Below, piece after piece: positions 8,666 through 49,240 of a stretch of DNA of 64,000 bases. Under the pieces are notes generated by a model that worked only from the letters and a program-made list of their open reading frames with translations, had not been told where the DNA came from and searched no databases. A program made the position numbers and the translations under genes. Source of the stretch: Nymphaea colorata (taxonomy: Eukaryota > Streptophyta > Magnoliopsida > Nymphaeales > Nymphaeaceae); assembly GCF_008831285.2 (NCBI RefSeq), contig NC_045139.1, positions 17,466,354 through 17,530,353 on the forward strand. Direction: 5' to 3'. The first letter of the stretch is position 1. Each line of letters opens with the position of its first letter.

Positions 8666-9057
8666 TTACATGTTATTCTTAGATAGTTGCCTACTCACAT
8701 TGGTTATGGGACACAGTCAATGCTGCAACTCCTGGCCTTAACAGAATTCTATAAAGTTCATCATTACCTTGTTTGTCCTGCTTGTATCTCATCAAAATTT
8801 TCACTAGTGACATTCAATTTAAACTCACTTACTATTTCATATTGTTCCATTGATCAAGACAATTACATCTTATTCTTAGATAGTAGCCTACGTCACATTG
8901 GTTATGGGACACAGTCAATGGTGCAACTCCTGGCTTTAACAGAATTTATAAAGTTCATCATTACCTTGTTTGTCCTGCTTGTATCTCATCAAAATTTTCA
9001 CTAGTGACATTCAATTTAAACTCACTTACTATTTCATATTGTTCCATTGATCAAGAC
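8666..9057. repeat. 197-base tandem duplication, two near-identical copies
   Basis: Copy 1 is 8666-8862 and copy 2 is 8863-9057, directly abutting. They differ by only a few substitutions and single-base indels (for example GTTGCCTAC-TCAC versus GTAGCCTACGTCAC). The high identity implies a recent event. No open reading frame is shared across both copies. Confidence 0.9.
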
Positions 9058-11120
9058 ATTCATGTTTCACTTACGAGGACAAGGGTTCTGATTTCTGAAT
9101 GTCTAGCCACACATGCTATCATGCACTCAGCAACTCATTCACAATGTACATAAGCATGTATACATTTCTTTGGCACATATAGCCAGAATCTTTCCAAATT
9201 TAGGCAATATCATAGGTTGCTGCAACATGAAGCTTTTCACCCCTAGTTTTTTTTATGGGGTATGACTCTACCAGCTAAAAAATGTGATTGTTATTAAACA
9301 GAACTACCTCTAACAATGCACTAAAGCTATTATCTTCCATACTCCATGAACCAGTGATTCTTTTCTCTTATGAATTCAGGTAGTAGATTCTAACATAAGG
9401 AAGAGTACCTCTTTGTGAATATAAGCTCATGTAATTAAACCTTATGTAATTTAGATTAGATGAGAACAACAATCACCTTTTACATGTTAATGCCTTAGAT
9501 TGCCAGTTAATGTATATAAGTCTATGCTAGTCATTTCACGCACCACCCATCTACTTCAACAATCATTCTTGAATGACACATGATCCATGACCTACATCTA
9601 CATTATGACTTAGGTTGAAGATTTGCAACCCTGAAGGCAGATACTTGTTTAACATGTTGAATTAAATATTATCAACCTCAACCATAAAATTAGTCCTCAG
9701 TGTATACTGACTTATCATCTCCATCTTTCACTTAAAACCTTTCATTCCAACACGTAATGCTTTTTAGATGAACTTTTCATTGATTCAATCTCCAAGACTT
9801 GCTTACAGTACATTAGACATCACAGTTTTTCCATCAATGAGCCAAACATTGCCTTTTTCTTTTCTGTAAGAAGGACGTCACACCTAGCCATCCTTAGCAT
9901 GCACCGTATAATTCACTTAAAACAGCAAGGAAGTTTGGCACATAAAGAAATGGTAGTTTAAGTACTCATACAAATTACACAAATATCCACATCTTCTCTC
10001 AATCTTTAACGACATATTATTACACAGATTTGCATAAAGCAATCATGAATTATACAAATTTGTTATTCTTTCAAAATAGCTTTCTCAATCAGAGGACAGC
10101 CATAAATTAGTCCCTTACAAAGTCTTTAACTTGGAATGCATGAATTATGAGGATAAAATTTACAAAGATTGCAAACTGTAACACCCTCTGCATCGACAAG
10201 AAAAGTGATTCCACCCATGTCACCTGTGCAGTCTAACCTGCAAAAGGATAATGCAGGGAGAAACAAAAAGAAAACAAATAGTAGAAAATAAGAACCCATG
10301 ACCGGCATTTGATTATGCCTAACATGAGGAATTTGTTTGCACAAAAAAATGATTTTTTATATCCTGGAAATGGTTTATAAGGATGATCTTTGAGATAGAA
10401 TGCATGCGCAACCAATTAGGCTGTAATGCATTCATTTATAACATTTTAAATCTTATGACGAACAATGTACCACATATTCCAAGCTTATTGTACCATTAGA
10501 ACGTAGGTAATACTAATAAACCACTTATCCAGAAAAATGAGATATTGGGCGTTCCGCAAGCAAGAGTTCTTCGTAAAAAAAAGGAGACAAGCGAGTGAAT
10601 CCCAAAAATCGAGATATTGAGTGTTTAAATGCACCAGCAGAAAAATGGAGATAAATAAGCAAATCTCACTCCCGACTACAGGATCATTTTCCAACTTATC
10701 ACCTTTCCCATAGGATGTTAATAGATCAAAATGCGCAATCGATCAAATTATTATTTAAAATCTTGAACTAAAAAATGAAAATAATAATAAATAAAAACTA
10801 CGGTCATCAGCCCCACACGGCCAACCACCAGAAAGGAAAAAGGCAATCTGAATGGAGCAACGAATCAATCAACACTGGCGGAGCAAAGTATCACAAAGGA
10901 CGAATGACAACCCCAAATCAAAACAACTCTCAAAGACAGATGCCGCAAAAAACGAGCCAATGAAAGCAGGACCGGAAGAAATAGAAGGTCCCAACGCATT
11001 GAATCCGTCCCGCGACAGAGAAGGGGAGAAAATGAAAAACAATCGAAAAGCGCGATTCAAAAAGAAACCCCTAGATTTTCAAGATCCACGAAAGCAAGAA
11101 GCAGAAGAACATGTGTATAC

Positions 11121-37209: not shown

Positions 37210-40200
37210 TCATTTGGAAGAACCTTCTGGAACCATTTCTGAAGAAAAGTGACAATCAATCTGCTTTCTACCAGTAGAGAAAGGCTTCAGAGTTGATCTC
37301 AGTGACTCAGGCCCTTCTACATTAATACGCTTACACAAAGCATCACAGTTGCTTAACACTTCAGTTAGCCTTCCTTTCAGCTCACCAACCTCTACTTGCA
37401 ACTGGTGCACTACAGGAAAGTTTGTAGCCCAAATAAGGACCAAAAAAAAAAAAAAAATTGAAAACCAAAAATTTTCATCAACCACGAGCTAGGGTTGAAC
37501 AAAGAACCAGGACTAGCTTCAAGTGTCGCGCATGACAGCATTGATAAACTACTTTTTGGTTTCAAGCACCAAAATCACTCAAGCCTGAGCCATGAGTTCT
37601 ATGGCCATGCCAACCCCCTAGTCTCAAAAACAATAAAAGGGCATAATGCAAGGGCCCATACCATTTGATAAGTGTTGTGCAGTTGTCCTCATAGCTGATA
37701 ATGAATAATTGAACCTCTGTAAGAGTTTGATGGCCAATGCATCTGCAATCTCAATTTTGCTTTCCAACTCTTCCTGCCATGATGAAAAGCATTTGAGAAA
37801 CAGAAAATAGCTACATGTTCTTGCAGGTGCAAACCAAAAAGTTAATGAACATCCCAGAACAAGAAAAGAGCAAGCATCCTCTTACAATATCAACCCAGAG
37901 ATTCATTCGACGCCTATCACGCAAGGCAGATAAAGAAGCAAAATCCATTCCTGTTGAAAGGTCTTTCTCATGATATTCCCCTACACTTACTCCTCTCCCA
38001 CAAAGTCCTATTGCCTCTTCGATGATGCTAAAACTATGTTGGAAACCTACCCTTAACATCAAAATAATTTTCAAAAATTATTTTAGGTTAAAATTAGGAC
38101 TTTAACATAGTTTGAGTGTCAGTTAAACAGGCTGCTAATCTTCAGGGTTCTAAAGAAACTAGGTTCTAGAAATTCATATCCTGAAGATTTAGAACACTGC
38201 ACTCATCACCTGAAGACGAAAAATCATTTCATATACTGAAACAATTCCACATCCTTCACTGAGAGAAATGGAACCATGATGGTGTTATCGCACCCAACTC
38301 ACCTTTGTCAATTTGTGATATCTAAGTTATGGAATCCACTCGTATCTGAACCATCAGAGTGCCACAAAAATTTAATAAAAAAGGACAAATTTTATTATTA
38401 ATCTTTACCTTTGATTTGGAAATTACCAGCAACAGTTTTGGTCATATCTAAGCTTTGTGGCTTCATACCTACTTCTCCAGCTTCAAAGGTTCATGCAGTT
38501 CCAACTAGAAAGGCAATAAACTCCCTATTAACCATTTAATCATTTCAGTGAGCTGTTGCATGGAAACAGAATGCGATTAATCCTTTTAGGTTTCTCCCAG
38601 TCACAATTATAAACAAGAAGGATGTCTCCATCAGTATTATGACTCTGTGAGACTATACCTTGCCATCCTTCAGGAAGCATGTTTATTGCCTTTTCAGCAA
38701 TGCATTCCATCAAAAGTCTGTGTGAGGAAGATCCAGAGGGTTTGGCTTACTGGAGCAGGCTGTGGCTGTCAAATTAGCAGTCATCATTCAAGCTTTATAG
38801 GTGCCTGAATCTGCATGTACTCCTGGGATCCCAGAGGACCACCACTGCTCCTGTGAGGGTTCTGGTTGAGGGTTTCCACGGATAATGCATTCTGGCACCA
38901 GTTGTCCCCTCACACCCAGAGGACCACCACTGCTCTCTATATCACAGGGATAATGCATTCTGGCACCAGTTGTCCCCTAACAATAGAAATTACATTAGGG
39001 GGCATTCGATTACCAGGAATCATTGGAATGTCAGAATCAAAATTCCATTTTTTGAAGAAATAGGAATTATATGATCAAACACTGAATACCAAGCCTTCTC
39101 CCCTCACACCCATCTTCTTCCTTGCACGAAAAAAATCCTCTCCCCGTGAAGTTGCTCGCTTCTCCTTCATCTAGCAGGTAGCACCATTGCAGCTCTCTAC
39201 GTCTCCATGCCTAACGCCTACACCACCATGTCCTTGTCGGACTGGCCATCCACCTGCCGGAGTTCACAGCTCTGGCGCCAGAGAAGCACAAGAACACCTA
39301 CGCCAGCATGATGTACATGGGCACTCCAAGGGACTATGAGTTCTACATCTGCGTGTCCAGCTCCACTCCCCCACCTGCCTGAAAATCGATGCCGATCTTG
39401 TGGTCATCACCTTTAAGGATGTGCCTCAGAAATCTCTGCCATCTAAGCTTCAACCCTAATCATCCCTTTCCCCTTTCTTCTCATTCTGTTATGGCGGAGC
39501 CAAGATCTTAGTTTTGGCTGGAAATGCAGGGAGAATGAGGATGGCGTGAGGGTGGGAAGCATGGTTAACGTCGAAAATCCTTAGAGGAATCAAGCTAATT
39601 TCGACAAGTGATTCATGCTCACTCTGAACAAGCTCTGTGCTTGGAGTTTGGTTGAATGTGACCGAGTTGTGATGCTGGATTCTGACAATTGGTCTTTGGA
39701 CAAAACTGATGCGCTCTTCTGGTGTGAGCAATTCTGCGCCGTGTTCATCAATCCCTGTATTTTTCACACTGGCCTCTTTGTTTTGCAGGTTGGTGATTTT
39801 CTTTCATTTTCTATCAATTTTTGTTGAATGGGTGTCGTCTTTTTCTGGGGTTTTTAAATCAAACATGGTATTTCAGTTCTGGAATCAAGATTCCAGGTTA
39901 TCAAACACACATAAAAATTGGAATTGGATGAAATTGGAATGAAAATTCCAATTCCAGTTTTAGGTTGAACTTTGATTCAAGCATCAAAGTTGTAGACTGA
40001 CCAAACGCCCCCTTAGGGACTCAATAAAATCTTGTTACCGTATCTTTAGGCGTATCCCTATGCCAGAACTACATCTATACTCAGGGAGTTCACATGTTTT
40101 CTAATCCTTTCTCTTGCCAGAAGAAAAATCATAACACAATTTACTACAACATTTTAGAGTGCTAAAGAATCCATTCTTCAATTCAGGTGCACATGTCAAA

Positions 40201-42061
40201 CATAAGCATTCAATTCTTCCAAAGCCATGAATGCTGCGTCTCTAAATGTCTTTCCTCCTATGTTCAAACCTCTTGTCTGAGATTGGTCCTCATCAACTAC
40301 CCATGGTGGATTGTGCATATTTAAGTACTCTAGACTGAATTGAGCCCAGACATTTGCATGATTTAGGAGGAACTGATCACAAGATTTTAGGAGAGACCCT
40401 AGCGCTTTCAATAATGTTCAGTCTCCTTCACTGCTATATATATCTTTTAAGTTTGACAAGCCAAATCTGCCAAGTGAGGTGACTGCACCTTTCTTCATAA
40501 CATCTCTGACGGGGAGAGCCTAAGTTGGAAACTTTACTCAGACTGGGACCTGAACATAGGCTTCGTGTTCTCCTGTAATGACAAGGTTTGCTTTCTTTTC
40601 CACATTCCATATTTTCAGGTAAAAAGGTGGGGCCCGTCCCCTAAAGTTTGGATCAAAGCTGCTGATTTAGCCATTTTACAAACTCCAGTCTGATATTTCG
40701 GTGCCTTCTTTTGTGACAACACCAAAACATTCAGGGCCTAAATATGTCTGAGTTGCTAAATCAACCGGCTGACAAATGGGCAAGGGAATTCAAGCCCAAG
40801 TCACAAGCTTGCGAGCTATAAGTGCAGGATTAAAGCAACAAAGTCAAAAAAGTTCAAAGGGTCAATCTCCCAACTACTAATTTGATTTAACAAAAGGAGA
40901 AAAGTGCCTTTTCAGTGCAATATGTCCATGATTTAGTTATATGTATGCTTGTTTGCAAATTCTAGTTAGTTAATATTTCCAATTCACCCACACCTTTTTA
41001 CCTGCTTCCATGAGAATCATGTAGTTAGAGGCATCAGAAGCGTTCACATTTACAACCAAGCAGCAACCAAGTTCAAAAAATGTTTTATTGGCATAAATAT
41101 TGTAATTGCCCTTCCGATAGCATTAAAGCATCAGTGCAATTGTTATTCTATTGTCACAGATTCCTTAGATAGCACATGAAAAAATTGTTAAGCAATGAAT
41201 TTTTTTAAAGAAACATAATTTCCAGAGATTGAATGATATATAGAAAGCACCTGTTTTTCACTAATTTTTTTAGCTTTGTCTTCTTGCCAATTATAGTAAA
41301 CTGTGAAAAGCTCCAGCAGAGCTTTGGGATCCAGAGCACCTGAAAAGAATTGGAGAACAAAATCATCATTCTTGCAACCATATATCTTTGAGCTTGGTGG
41401 TAAATAAGTTCAAGATAGCCCCATCAATTGAACTGAATCCCATTTTGTTTTATTAATCTGTCCCACACAGATATCAACAACCACTAGCTAACAATCAATT
41501 AAGAAACTCGTTCCTAACTGCAGTGAAGGCCTAGAGCGTAAGCAGTCGTAATTGCGCTTACGCCACAGAGAGTTCTAACAGATTTCAAATCCAAAACTCT
41601 GAAAAGAAGATGGTAGGAAGAAAACCTGGATTGGAAGATGAAGAAGGCTTTCTTACAAGAATGTCCGTCAGGCTACTCTCCGTCGGTGGGGTTTTGAGAA
41701 TCGGCGTGGTCTATCCAAGACAAGAAAGCCAACAAAAAGATAATCAAAATTTATCCCAATTTTATCAAAATCATCACCAAAACAGGAAGAAAAAGTAAGA
41801 TGGACAATAACTCCTGCTAGAAAAGAATAACTTACAATTTTCAGGGACCTCAGTCTCTCTAATAGGGGGTCGATTGCTTCTACCCTCTCTGAGACGGTGG
41901 TTATCTCGTCAACCGCCTGTTTGGCACAGAACGTTGCAAAAAAGGAATCAGAGAAATTAATCAAGAGACAACTATACAACTTCGTTAAAGGAAATCCACA
42001 GAGAGGGAGGGAAAGAGAGAGGTACTTGACTACGCAAAAATTTGGAATCTGAGGTGCCCAT
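37210..42061 (-). CDS. small coiled-coil protein of 200 residues, family not recognised
   Basis: Six minus-strand exons join in phase: 42061-42026, 41916-41836, 41710-41626, 41339-41251, 37773-37662 and 37409-37210. All introns are GT..AG. The product starts MGTSDSKFLRSQAVDEITTV and is largely helical with heptad-like Leu/Ile spacing: residues 13-39, 68-97 (LDPKALLELFTVYYNWQEDK) and 98-160 (ESKIEIADALAIKLLQRFNY, then HQLQVEVGELKGRLTEVLSN). Residues 40-66 are a Pro/Ser/Thr-rich linker (TTPILKTPPTESSLTDILVR). No signal peptide or membrane segment is present. The heptads suggest a subunit of a multi-protein assembly, but no family name can be given. Intron 4 is 3.5 kb because of inserted material; exon 5 is only about 110 bases from a gene-like fragment with a competing donor. 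Confidence 0.85.
37883..38073 (-). pseudogene. exon-like fragment of an unrecognised gene in intron 4
   Basis: The minus strand keeps an open frame reading FQHSFSIIEEAIGLCGRGVS, then GEYHEKDLSTGMDFASLSAL and RDRRRMNLWVDI, followed by a donor-like GTAAGA. That donor is phase 0, the same as the acceptor of exon 5 at 37773. The composition is protein-like, but no family was recognised. It may be a decayed captured exon or a genuine alternative exon of the coiled-coil gene. Confidence 0.4.
38555..38730 (-). pseudogene. second exon-like fragment in intron 4
   Basis: A minus-strand frame reads RLLMECIAEKAINMLPEGWQ, then GIVSQSHNTDGDILLVYNCD and WEKPKRINRILF, ending at a stop soon after. It has the same orientation as the neighbouring fragments and no recognised domain. 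Confidence 0.4.
38830..38978. repeat. local duplication next to the Tourist-like element
   Basis: A 21-base word CCCAGAGGACCACCACTGCTC occurs at 38830 and 38915, and a 31-base word starting GGATAATGCATTCTGGCACC occurs at 38880 and 38948. The two words alternate, so one block was duplicated imperfectly, ending 17 bases before the element's target site. Confidence 0.85.
38998..40012 (+). mobile_element. Tourist-like (PIF/Harbinger) element carrying a GT8 gene fragment
   Basis: The ends are GGGGGCATTCGAT (left) and, as reverse complement, GGGGGCGTTTGGT (right), and both sides are flanked by TTA (38995-38997 and 40013-40015), the target duplication of PIF/Harbinger elements. Just inside the ends are further GGAATC/AAATTCC inverted words. 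At 1015 bases it lacks a transposase, so it is non-autonomous. Most of its interior (39233-39788) is a degenerate copy of a host glycosyltransferase gene in the plus direction, opposite to the host gene. The intron 4 sequence on each side continues with unrelated exon-like fragments. Confidence 0.75.
39233..39788 (+). pseudogene. captured fragment of a GT8 glycosyltransferase (PGSIP/GUX-like)
   Basis: Three blocks follow the order of a GT8 protein. Block 1 (39233-39351) reads HLPEFTALAPEKHKNTYASM then MYMGTPRDYEFY. Block 2 (39379-39440) reads LKIDADLVVITFKDVPQKSL. Block 3 (39537-39788) includes LNKLCAWSLVECDRVVMLDS, the metal-binding DxD as DSD, then FCAVFINPCIFHTGLFVLQ. By memory this matches the plant PGSIP7/8 branch. 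The frame is broken by missing sequence between blocks and in-frame stops before LNKL. FVLQ is followed by GTTGG, which looks like a retained intron donor, so genomic DNA rather than cDNA was captured. Confidence 0.75.
40196..40600 (-). pseudogene. third exon-like fragment in intron 4, with stops
   Basis: The minus strand reads ALPVRDVMKKGAVTSLGRFG then LSNLKDIYSSEGD, a stop, then LLKALGSLLKSCDQFLLNHA, NVWAQFSLEYLNMHNPPWVV and DEDQSQTRGLNIGGKTFRDA before a stop at 40196. At least three in-frame stops interrupt the longer frame. The protein family was not recognised. It precedes the other two fragments in transcription order, with the Tourist-like element between. Confidence 0.45.
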
Positions 42062-46439: not shown

Positions 46440-49240
46440 ATCTGTTTAGTTTACTGTCTAACTCACAAGGATCCGTTTACTGTTCTATCTCAGATGTAAA
46501 AAGCATGATAGTTTAAGTCGTGCAGCAAATGTTGAAGAAATTTATTCAGTTCGCTGACTGAAACAGAGATGCAATGCGTGAGAGACTGAGGTTGGTGAGC
46601 AACTGGTGATATAGACTTATATCTGTCTTATCATGTCCTGATTCAAATACAGATGATCCTCGGCTATGGCTGTGTATCTGATAAGCATTGGTGGCTGTGA
46701 AAATGGAAAGCGATTCATTGCTTAAGTGGAATTGGAATAATTGGACCAAACAGTGGAAATTCAATATCAGCCTTCAATCTTTTGTCTTTGGCAGGACCAT
46801 AGCATGTGAATTCAGTGTGAGGCTGTGGTCAAAATTTCGAGGTTTAACACCCTGATCTTGAATCTGATCACGGGTACTTCTCCGTACTTCCTAAAGCCGC
46901 CCGTTCTACTCTCCATTATCAAAGGGTCAGACATGTTCAAGTCTTCTGGGCGTTTCTCTTTGTACAAACCGATGTAATAGATGTACCATCTGACTTCAGA
47001 AAAAATTGAAGAATTTTACCAATTCTGGGTCTTTTCTTTGGAACCTGCGCAGTTTACAGCTGTCAAAGGGAAAGATCTGCTCGAACTTGCTCAAATCTAA
47101 AGCATGTCGCTGGATGTACAACACGAGACGAGAAAGCATATCTGTTCTTGAAACTTGTGCAGTTTACAGTTATAAAAAAGTTTTACTGCTGCTGGCTGCT
47201 GCCAGAAAAGTGCAGTCATGAAGTTTTCTTAGAACTAGTCCAGAAGGGGTCATAACTTCACTAGACCTGGATACGTTGGGACCTGCACTTAACCAATGGG
47301 TTTTTGTACTAGTTCTGCTATGTAGAAGTTCTAGCCATTCCCGGTCCCCAGACTCCCGACGAAAGTGGACAATCGGATAGATCGACCCTCAAGGCACACA
47401 TAATACAGGTCCAAATGCCTCTTTAGATGATCGGGCTCAAAGAAATGAATGTGGACAGGACTCTGGCAGCCAAATTCGAGTAAGAATGTGAACTCGAGCA
47501 GGTATCTGATATAGATGCCCATAAATTCACATTATTAATTGGCCTTTCGTCTCTTAGAATATGAGTGAAGTACCCAATACTAAAACTAAAATGAAGAAAA
47601 CTCGCGGATCGGATGACACTCGGTTCCTCTTCATGCCTAGTAGCAGCTGTAGCAACTCACCAATCAACAGGCGAGATCTGAGCTGGATCAACGTGCTTTC
47701 CCATTTGGATACATTTTTACACTAGAGCTCGCATCTTCTGATGAGGATGCATCCATGGATTCAGAGACCGGGGCTCTGGCTTTCCAGGCTCTGCCCGTAT
47801 TGGATGTGTCCTTCCCCAAGATGGGCACTACTGTCCTGAGAAGGTCATTTCCCTTATCCTCCTCATTCTGGAGATCATTCCCGAGAAGAGGAGCAGGACC
47901 AGGTGAGTGGGAATGCAGCTCCATGGATGGCCGTGTATGCCATTTCTGCACCCCCAAGGGCCGTGTATGCCATTTCTGCACCCCCAAGGGCGGGATTGCC
48001 ACGCCCAGGCCGCTTTCATCAAATGCTTCTAGGCTTTCATATAGAGATTTGATTTTTTTCTAGAACTGTATCCTTGTATTCACGGTAACCCATATTTTGT
48101 TCATTCTGATCATTGATTAAAAAGGTAGCATTTGTGATCACAATGCTTTTAGTGTACACGAGGTTGTTCTTGCATAGATTTTCCTAAATCAAAATTACAT
48201 ACAATTAAGTTAAGATATATATCATATATGACTTAAAAGTATATAAATAAAACATCGCCGTGGATAAAGAGGGTTAAGTGTCCATAACGTAGATCATGCC
48301 GATTTTTTATGGTAAAAAAAGATTATCAGTTTCCATCTAGTTCTGAAACCTTAATGACATGTTTTCACTCAAAACTCATCAATGGGTTAGGTTCATGTCG
48401 GCCAATTTAACTATCATGTTTCATTACTTAAAACTAATACAACATATTTCTATAATTATTTTATTAATATATTGATTAAATGGAGCTCCACATGGGCTGA
48501 TATTCAGAAGTGGGCCTCTTCACAGAAAAGTAGAAACGAATATCAACAACGTAAAGTAAAAGGAATCGGATCAGGAAAGCATTGGATGAGTTCAGATGTG
48601 GGACAGTTAAAAAAATGGCACACAACGCGTTGCAACCTTATTCCGATATCCGAATGAACTCTTGTACCAACCTCCTCTCAACGTATTCAAACTATGGCAC
48701 ACAAACGTCTGCTGTGAAGGATTAGAGAACACGAGATTCCCATTGCAGAAGCAAATCACAGTGCATAAGATAAGAACGAGCTCAACCTGGTTCCTGCTTT
48801 GACAAAACTGAAATTACACACACACACAGAGCTGTATAGGCATGTGGAACCTTGCCTGCATGTGCGTGATAAGAAGATGGATTACATATCAGGTCTACAA
48901 TAATGCTTCAGTTACAATCTCCGGTGCAAAGACAGAAATGCAGAATTAGAAAAACAAAGAAGTCAGTTATGCTTTTATTTCTCACAAACTCAAAACTTGA
49001 TAACGGAAAATGCCAGGTAGCGACAAATATTGATGGTCCTCAACGCATGACAGGCAACTCCTAAACCAAACACGGTAGAAGGTTTATGACATAATTGAGA
49101 TACAAAAGAACGGATTAGGAACCAATGAATACAAAGCAAGTAGAGATACAGCTGCCAACATTCTGTACACATAACCAGATCATAGCTATCCTCGTGAACC
49201 ACAATAAAAAAATAGTTACATGATGCAACCTGAAACTCAT
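46440..49240. other. intergenic, no gene seen
   Basis: AT-rich sequence with the probable PPR 3' UTR at its left and IQD 3' UTR at its right. A GC-richer patch near 47690-48010 contains a 30-base tandem repeat but no supported gene. Confidence 0.6.
47931..47990. repeat. 30-base tandem repeat, two exact copies
   Basis: Copies at 47931-47960 and 47961-47990 are identical, built around CCGTGTATGCCATTTCTGCA. The period is a multiple of three, so an open frame passes through both copies. Confidence 0.95.

Follow-up and report, generated by a model that had tools for sequence, protein, structure and literature searches.

A Tourist-like PIF/Harbinger element of Nymphaea colorata carrying a captured fragment of a GT8 glycosyltransferase gene

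A locus of about 1 kb in the genome of Nymphaea colorata has the ends of a small DNA transposon and an interior that resembles a damaged glycosyltransferase gene. It raises the question of whether a Tourist-like element has captured part of a host gene, as the first-pass annotation proposed, and, if so, from which gene, how often, and by what route. The window analyzed here is a stretch of 64 kb (C2:17466354-17530353), and the genome searched comprises 408 Mb in 783 contigs. The element occupies bases 38998-40012 of the window (1015 bp) and is flanked by TTA on each side, in the order TTA, GGGGGCATTCGATT, interior, reverse complement of GGGGGCGTTTGGTC, TTA; both the identical flanks (38995-38997 and 40013-40015) and the Tourist-like ends seen by the first-pass annotation were thus recovered. 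The end sequences are GGGGGCATTCGATTACC and, on the opposite strand, GGGGGCGTTTGGTCAGT. Ten of their first 14 bases agree (GGGGGC.TT.G.T.A), which bears out the GGGGGC-type ends noted earlier in a shorthand that spaces the positions slightly differently. When the 64-kb window was scanned for pairs of ends with a GGGGG start, equal TTA or TAA flanks, 9 or more of 12 end bases paired, and a distance of 100 to 3000 bp, 38998-40012 was the sole pair to pass at that threshold. The longest stop-to-stop frame inside the element has 104 aa, and a Pfam scan of one inner frame gave no match. The locus is confirmed as a PIF/Harbinger (Tourist-like) element, apparently non-autonomous, with the following features (window coordinates, strand, description).

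38995-38997, no strand: left target-site duplication TTA
38998-39087, plus strand: left arm of the Tourist/PIF element with terminal GGGGGCATTCGATT, homologous to the left end of the cargo-free elements L010, L016, and L043
39088-39229, plus strand: segment between the left arm and the GT8 piece, confined among the places matched to loaded copies and, for its first part, the half element L008
39230-39442, plus strand: partial GT8 exon 1 of the cargo; relative to the parent, 4 bases are deleted at each of two places
39443-39529, plus strand: captured GT8 intron 1, in which the GT donor of the parent is CT
39530-39788, plus strand: captured GT8 exon 2, including LDSDN at 39675-39689, with in-frame stops at 39582-39584 and 39609-39611
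39789-39852, plus strand: captured 5' portion of GT8 intron 2, with a final T-run that parent and element share
39853-40012, plus strand: right arm of the Tourist/PIF element, with its terminus GGGGGCGTTTGGTC on the minus strand
40013-40015, no strand: right target-site duplication TTA

Directly left of the insertion site, 38830-38982 contains near-identical stretches of 38 nt (68-nt spacing) and 21 nt (85-nt spacing). Elsewhere in the window, a 197-bp unit is repeated twice at 8666-9058 (96% matches) and a 30-bp unit twice at 47929-47991 (100%). Searches for a host gene around the insertion, in Pfam with six flanking minus-strand frames and in PDB with two of them, gave nothing usable.

The ends were then compared with the rest of the genome. 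The exact pattern TWAGGGGGCRTTTGATT (TWA plus GGGGGCRTTTGATT) occurs at 58 sites, versus 0 for a reversed-pattern control, and GGGGGCRTTTGATT without the triplet occurs at 118 sites, versus 1 for the control. TTA or TAA precedes 58 of these 118 ends, and TTA and TAA together make up 4.0% of the triplets in the window. The ends of the window element each deviate from exact TWAGGGGGCRTTTGATT and are absent from the 58. The contrast between 58 exact ends and none in the control indicates that the element ends are not due to chance; other copies, for which a search with the terminal bases had been suggested, do exist, and the ends are found at many other places. The left 93 bases of the element matched 13 places in the genome and the right 160 bases at least 40 (40 scored of 50 candidates), the window copy being included in both numbers. 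At most loci the terminus was first placed through homology to the window element. On the right side, 21 loci were fetched, of which 14 reach the terminus and 7 do not; TTA or TAA follows in 11 of the 14 (the other triplets are AAA, TAG, and TTG), 9 of the 14 having been part of the models that set the ends (counting L017, which is the same place as L021), and 2 of the 5 outside the model (L019 and L027-L030) have TTA or TAA. On the left side, 9 of 11 loci fetched reach the terminus, all 9 of them part of the end-setting models, and 4 of the 9 show TTA or TAA; the other triplets are GTA, GTA, CTA, CAA, and GTT, four of which are one substitution away from TTA or TAA. Nine elements with two candidate ends could be compared, and six have equal triplets on both sides, namely, the window element (TTA), L016 (TAA, 373 bp), L021 (TAA), L041 (TTA), L042 (TTA), and L043 (TAA, 727 bp); since TTA or TAA at both ends was a selection criterion for five of these six, only the agreement between ends is informative there. 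Flanks are unequal, by one base each, in L010 (TAC/TAA) and L047 (TAA/TGA), and L026 has none.

The source of the interior was found on a chromosome other than that of the window. Positions 233-858 of the element (39230 to about 39855) are 88% identical to C4:17377527-17378161, which is part of an intron-containing GT8 gene (C4:17377494 onward), so that the search for a parent gene proposed by the first-pass annotation was successful. Even with 1 kb of flank added on each side, the GT8 homology is confined to positions 233-858 of 1015; it ends inside the element and does not run beyond the TTA borders, an extension that the first-pass annotation had named as refuting evidence. The cargo starts within exon 1, continues through the whole of intron 1 and exon 2, and includes some 60 bases of intron 2; this combination of exon and intron sequence indicates an uptake as DNA and not as spliced RNA. 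At the parent locus (L002), exon 1 begins with an ATG at L002:1195 and is followed by a GT-AG intron 1, an exon 2 ending in FVLQ, intron 2, and an exon 3 that starts with PSEE; a further open frame is conserved in the paralogue L004. Judged by its sequence, the C4:17377494 locus reads as an open gene. The first 239 predicted residues matched glycogenins in PDB (best, glycogenin-2, 4ueg; E 9.3e-15), and the best Pfam family was Glyco_transf_8 (PF01501; E 3.7e-4), with 20.6 bits, below the curated cut-off of 24.3 bits. The parent is thus predicted to be a glycogenin-like GT8 protein, possibly of the PGSIP7/8 rather than the GUX subgroup. Several details read earlier from the element alone were recovered in this comparison: (i) the residual DSD, belonging to the LDSDN motif, lies at 39678-39686; (ii) an intron donor is retained after FVLQ, as the FVLQ/gttggt border of exon 2 and intron 2 is present in the element and identical in the parent; and (iii) the gene is broken by two 4-base deletions, by in-frame stops (39582 and 39609), and by CT in place of GT as the donor of intron 1 (39443). 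A stop-free frame of 71 codons surrounds LDSDN in the window copy.

The cargo search, in which 40 of 64 candidates were scored, revealed at least three loaded sites. Besides the window copy, these are L001 (from C4:7267371; left TTA) and L003 (C2:12344499-12345304, minus strand; right TAA), which contain the same cargo with both of its borders. At L001 the right end has decayed, and the best triplet there is TCA. With flanks added, the matches to L001 and L003 exceed the element by 7 bases at most, which shows that the three are separate insertions. All three share a 4-base deletion at 39432/39433, and the window copy and L001 share the second 4-base deletion. The identical breakpoints and the shared deletion argue for one capture that was followed by transposition. 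A paralogous empty site was not found, the right flank (40016-41300) matching itself alone in the genome.

L003 lacks the left half of the element, and L008 (C2:21093958-21094195; left TAA) is a left half only. The two lie 8.75 Mb apart in opposite orientation, and each adjoins LTR-like ends with GTTGC alongside: L008 breaks at GTTGC and continues with TGTTGG, and L003 starts with CCAACA followed by GTTGC. The window copy has a single GTTGC at this break point, and the outer triplets of L003 and L008 are both TAA. L008 appears to be the left half that is missing from L003, and the simplest reading would be a single copy split by the insertion of an LTR retrotransposon and a later rearrangement; an inversion with a break in the retrotransposon or an assembly error is possible. 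As the LTR-like pieces are merely 83 to 84% alike over their aligning parts, the split would be old, or two different insertions would be involved.

The way in which the copies diverged was assessed by codon position. Differences from the parent at positions 1, 2, and 3 amount to 12/156, 18/158, and 17/158 in the window copy (0.077, 0.114, and 0.108), to 16/140, 17/141, and 19/140 in L003, and to 26/155, 20/156, and 32/156 in L001 (0.168, 0.128, and 0.205), where third positions are somewhat more divergent than the other two. The corresponding numbers for the parent versus its paralogue L004 are 21, 16, and 73 of 159 (0.132, 0.101, and 0.459). These distributions indicate that the parent is under selection and that the copies are not, or hardly; the about equal values in the window copy point to neutral decay. 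Taking the parent as the ancestor, C-to-T or G-to-A changes in the window copy affect 19 of 66 CpG bases versus 17 of 245 C/G bases outside CpG; the respective numbers are 24/62 versus 35/241 in L001 and 17/59 versus 18/226 in L003, a CpG bias as expected of methylated transposon DNA.

Taken together, the structure of the element, its parent gene, the shared breakpoints, the family ends, and the neutral decay support the following course of events, which we regard as nearly certain. A Tourist-like (PIF/Harbinger) non-autonomous element would have taken up, as DNA and between its arms, part of a glycogenin-like GT8 gene (about 626 bp); through the action of a PIF transposase, the resulting Pack-type element would have reached at least three sites, where TTA/TAA was duplicated, and the loaded copies would afterwards have decayed as non-coding DNA. 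The central proposal of the first-pass annotation, a Tourist-like element with a captured host glycosyltransferase fragment, is hence supported by a parent that could be located, by homology that ends inside the element, and by ends shared with a family. Three competing accounts are far less convincing. It is very unlikely that the cargo still works, putatively by giving rise to small RNA or to a chimeric transcript that affects its GT8 parent: the parental sense order is kept and the 71-codon frame around LDSDN is open, but two deletions, a lost splice donor, two in-frame stops, and differences spread evenly over codon positions speak against it, and 88% similarity would be expected to target the parent poorly. 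That the GT8 gene was captured independently three times would agree with the observation that the copies differ from one another (15 to 20%) about as strongly as from the parent (11 to 17%), or more so, yet all three have both breakpoints and the deletion at 39432/39433 in common and two of them also the second deletion, which makes this account highly improbable. That a GT8 pseudogene arising from segmental duplication came to lie by chance between GGGGGC-like ends has virtually no remaining likelihood; it would account for the pseudogene nature of the interior alone, and it is refuted by parent homology that stops inside the ends, by arms and cargo that recur at other loci with unrelated flanks, and by ends that belong to a genome-wide family.

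Capture by a single element with inserted cargo is also what the arms suggest, although the uptake step itself allows for more than one route. In L001, 186 bases of the left arm can be aligned to elements that lack the cargo (72% with L010, 69% with L043, and in part with L016), and about 160 bases of the right arm also align to such elements, beginning at the same AATCAAACA stretch in four loci without cargo (L006, L007, L012, and L027). This alignment of both arms suggests that the cargo was placed in the middle of a single element. At the right junction of the cargo, donor and element have a T-run in common, and the window element measures 1015 bp with cargo, compared with 373 bp for its cargo-free relative L016. 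Uptake may thus have proceeded through repair-linked template switching inside a plain, L016-like element (373 bp). For this step alone, it is also conceivable, albeit unlikely, that two neighboring Tourist insertions flanked the GT8 sequence and moved as a unit after the loss of their inner ends. Such joint mobilization is a published model for Pack-TYPE elements, for which cluster examples are described (PMC8903248), and a family arm is indeed found on each side of the cargo. Against it stand the lengths over which the arms match cargo-free elements (186 and about 160 bases), the T-run at the right junction, and the fact that no remnant of inner termini was seen, so that the locus looks more like an element with cargo in its middle. 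Template switching in gap repair therefore fits somewhat better. The segment 39088-39229 was matched at E values up to 10 at three places (itself, C4:7267567, and C2:12345229), and no source was detected in this search, which was not exhaustive, the known L008 match being absent from it; the segment may derive from a second capture of older date or be filler DNA.

Mobilization would have been by a transposase acting in trans, probably from a relative with the same termini. The genome contains at least 150 DDE_Tnp_4 matches (150 scored of 307 candidates). The proximity of an exact family end to a transposase match led to the selection of L041, L042, and L045. L042 (C8:23267110-23272776) has TTA/GGGGGTGTTTGATG at one end and GGGGGCGTTTGATT/TTA at the other, with frames for DDE_Tnp_4 (PF13359; E 1.2e-14) and a Myb/SANT-like domain (PF12776; E 6.1e-15). 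L041 is similar, with PF13359 and PF12776 frames between TTA and TTA, but its transposase frames are shorter, and no enclosing pair of family ends was found at L045. The window element has about 14 terminal bases in common with L041 and L042, but not the arms. By its ends and frames, L042 is the best candidate partner, and mobilization of the window element in trans by an L042-type transposase is likely. In a separate search of six of the at least 150 transposase matches (L033-L038), enclosing equal TTA/TAA with G-starting inverted ends was found in none of five, and L037 showed two weak end pairs (11 of 14). L021 was considered as a 7.4-kb autonomous element and rejected, its length being due to an LTR retrotransposon inserted inside.

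L021 (C5:10844602-10852027) and L044 (C2, about 33862020-33865390) are longer elements with the same arms. The retrotransposon inside L021 has near-identical LTRs and was judged by eye from its frames to be of the Copia type. The interiors of L021 and L044 match C5:4024238 and C1:19449877, two unlinked places, side by side, and inspection by eye revealed no obvious coding region in the matching segments at either place. These interiors perhaps represent another, chimeric capture.

MULEs generate target-site duplications of 9 to 11 bp and Helitrons generate none; the window element, in contrast, has 3-bp TTA duplications and PIF-type ends. Pack-MULEs and Helitrons likewise capture and amplify gene fragments, according to the account in PMC10004981. 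The first-pass annotation had considered gene capture to be much less often described for Tourist/PIF elements, and this rarity is weaker than stated, as gene fragments in PIF elements are reported in grapevine (PMC2528002) and Pack-PIF elements in maize and rice (Gisby and Catoni 2022, PMC8903248). As described there, the Pack-PIF elements of maize and rice resemble the window element in that they are non-autonomous, mostly have TTA/TAA duplications, carry a central gene fragment, and have cargo-free sisters; maize cluster 18, for example, measures 402 bp without and 535 bp with the fragment (PMC8903248). They differ in that they occur in tens of copies (PMC8903248), compared with three known copies of the loaded element here, which belongs to a different plant and has a longer cargo, about 626 bp with intron sequence. 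Pifvine-3 of grapevine also belongs to the PIF superfamily and is described as having captured cellular exons and introns, sometimes in several copies, but its extra DNA forms a long 5' region of PIF-family elements (PMC2528002), whereas the window element shows no transposase. In the literature searched, we found no report on MITE/Harbinger elements of Nymphaea. The window element is a further case of a PIF gene capture of the kind already described.

Because a single genome contains the parent, a relative free of cargo, three copies that carry it, and candidate partners with transposase, the steps of the capture can be read from sequence. The case adds to those of grapevine, rice, and maize and fits gene capture as a general ability of PIF elements; it also agrees with the view that gene capture is not peculiar to Mutator-like elements and Helitrons. 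It further serves as a warning that GT8 matches at such loci are not genes. We tentatively propose, as a possibility that falls short of an even chance, that Tourist/PIF elements of an early-diverging flowering plant capture and amplify host gene fragments, in the present case chimeric ones (39088-39229 plus GT8), via repair-linked template switching. If this is true, Pack-PIF activity would extend outside monocots and eudicots.
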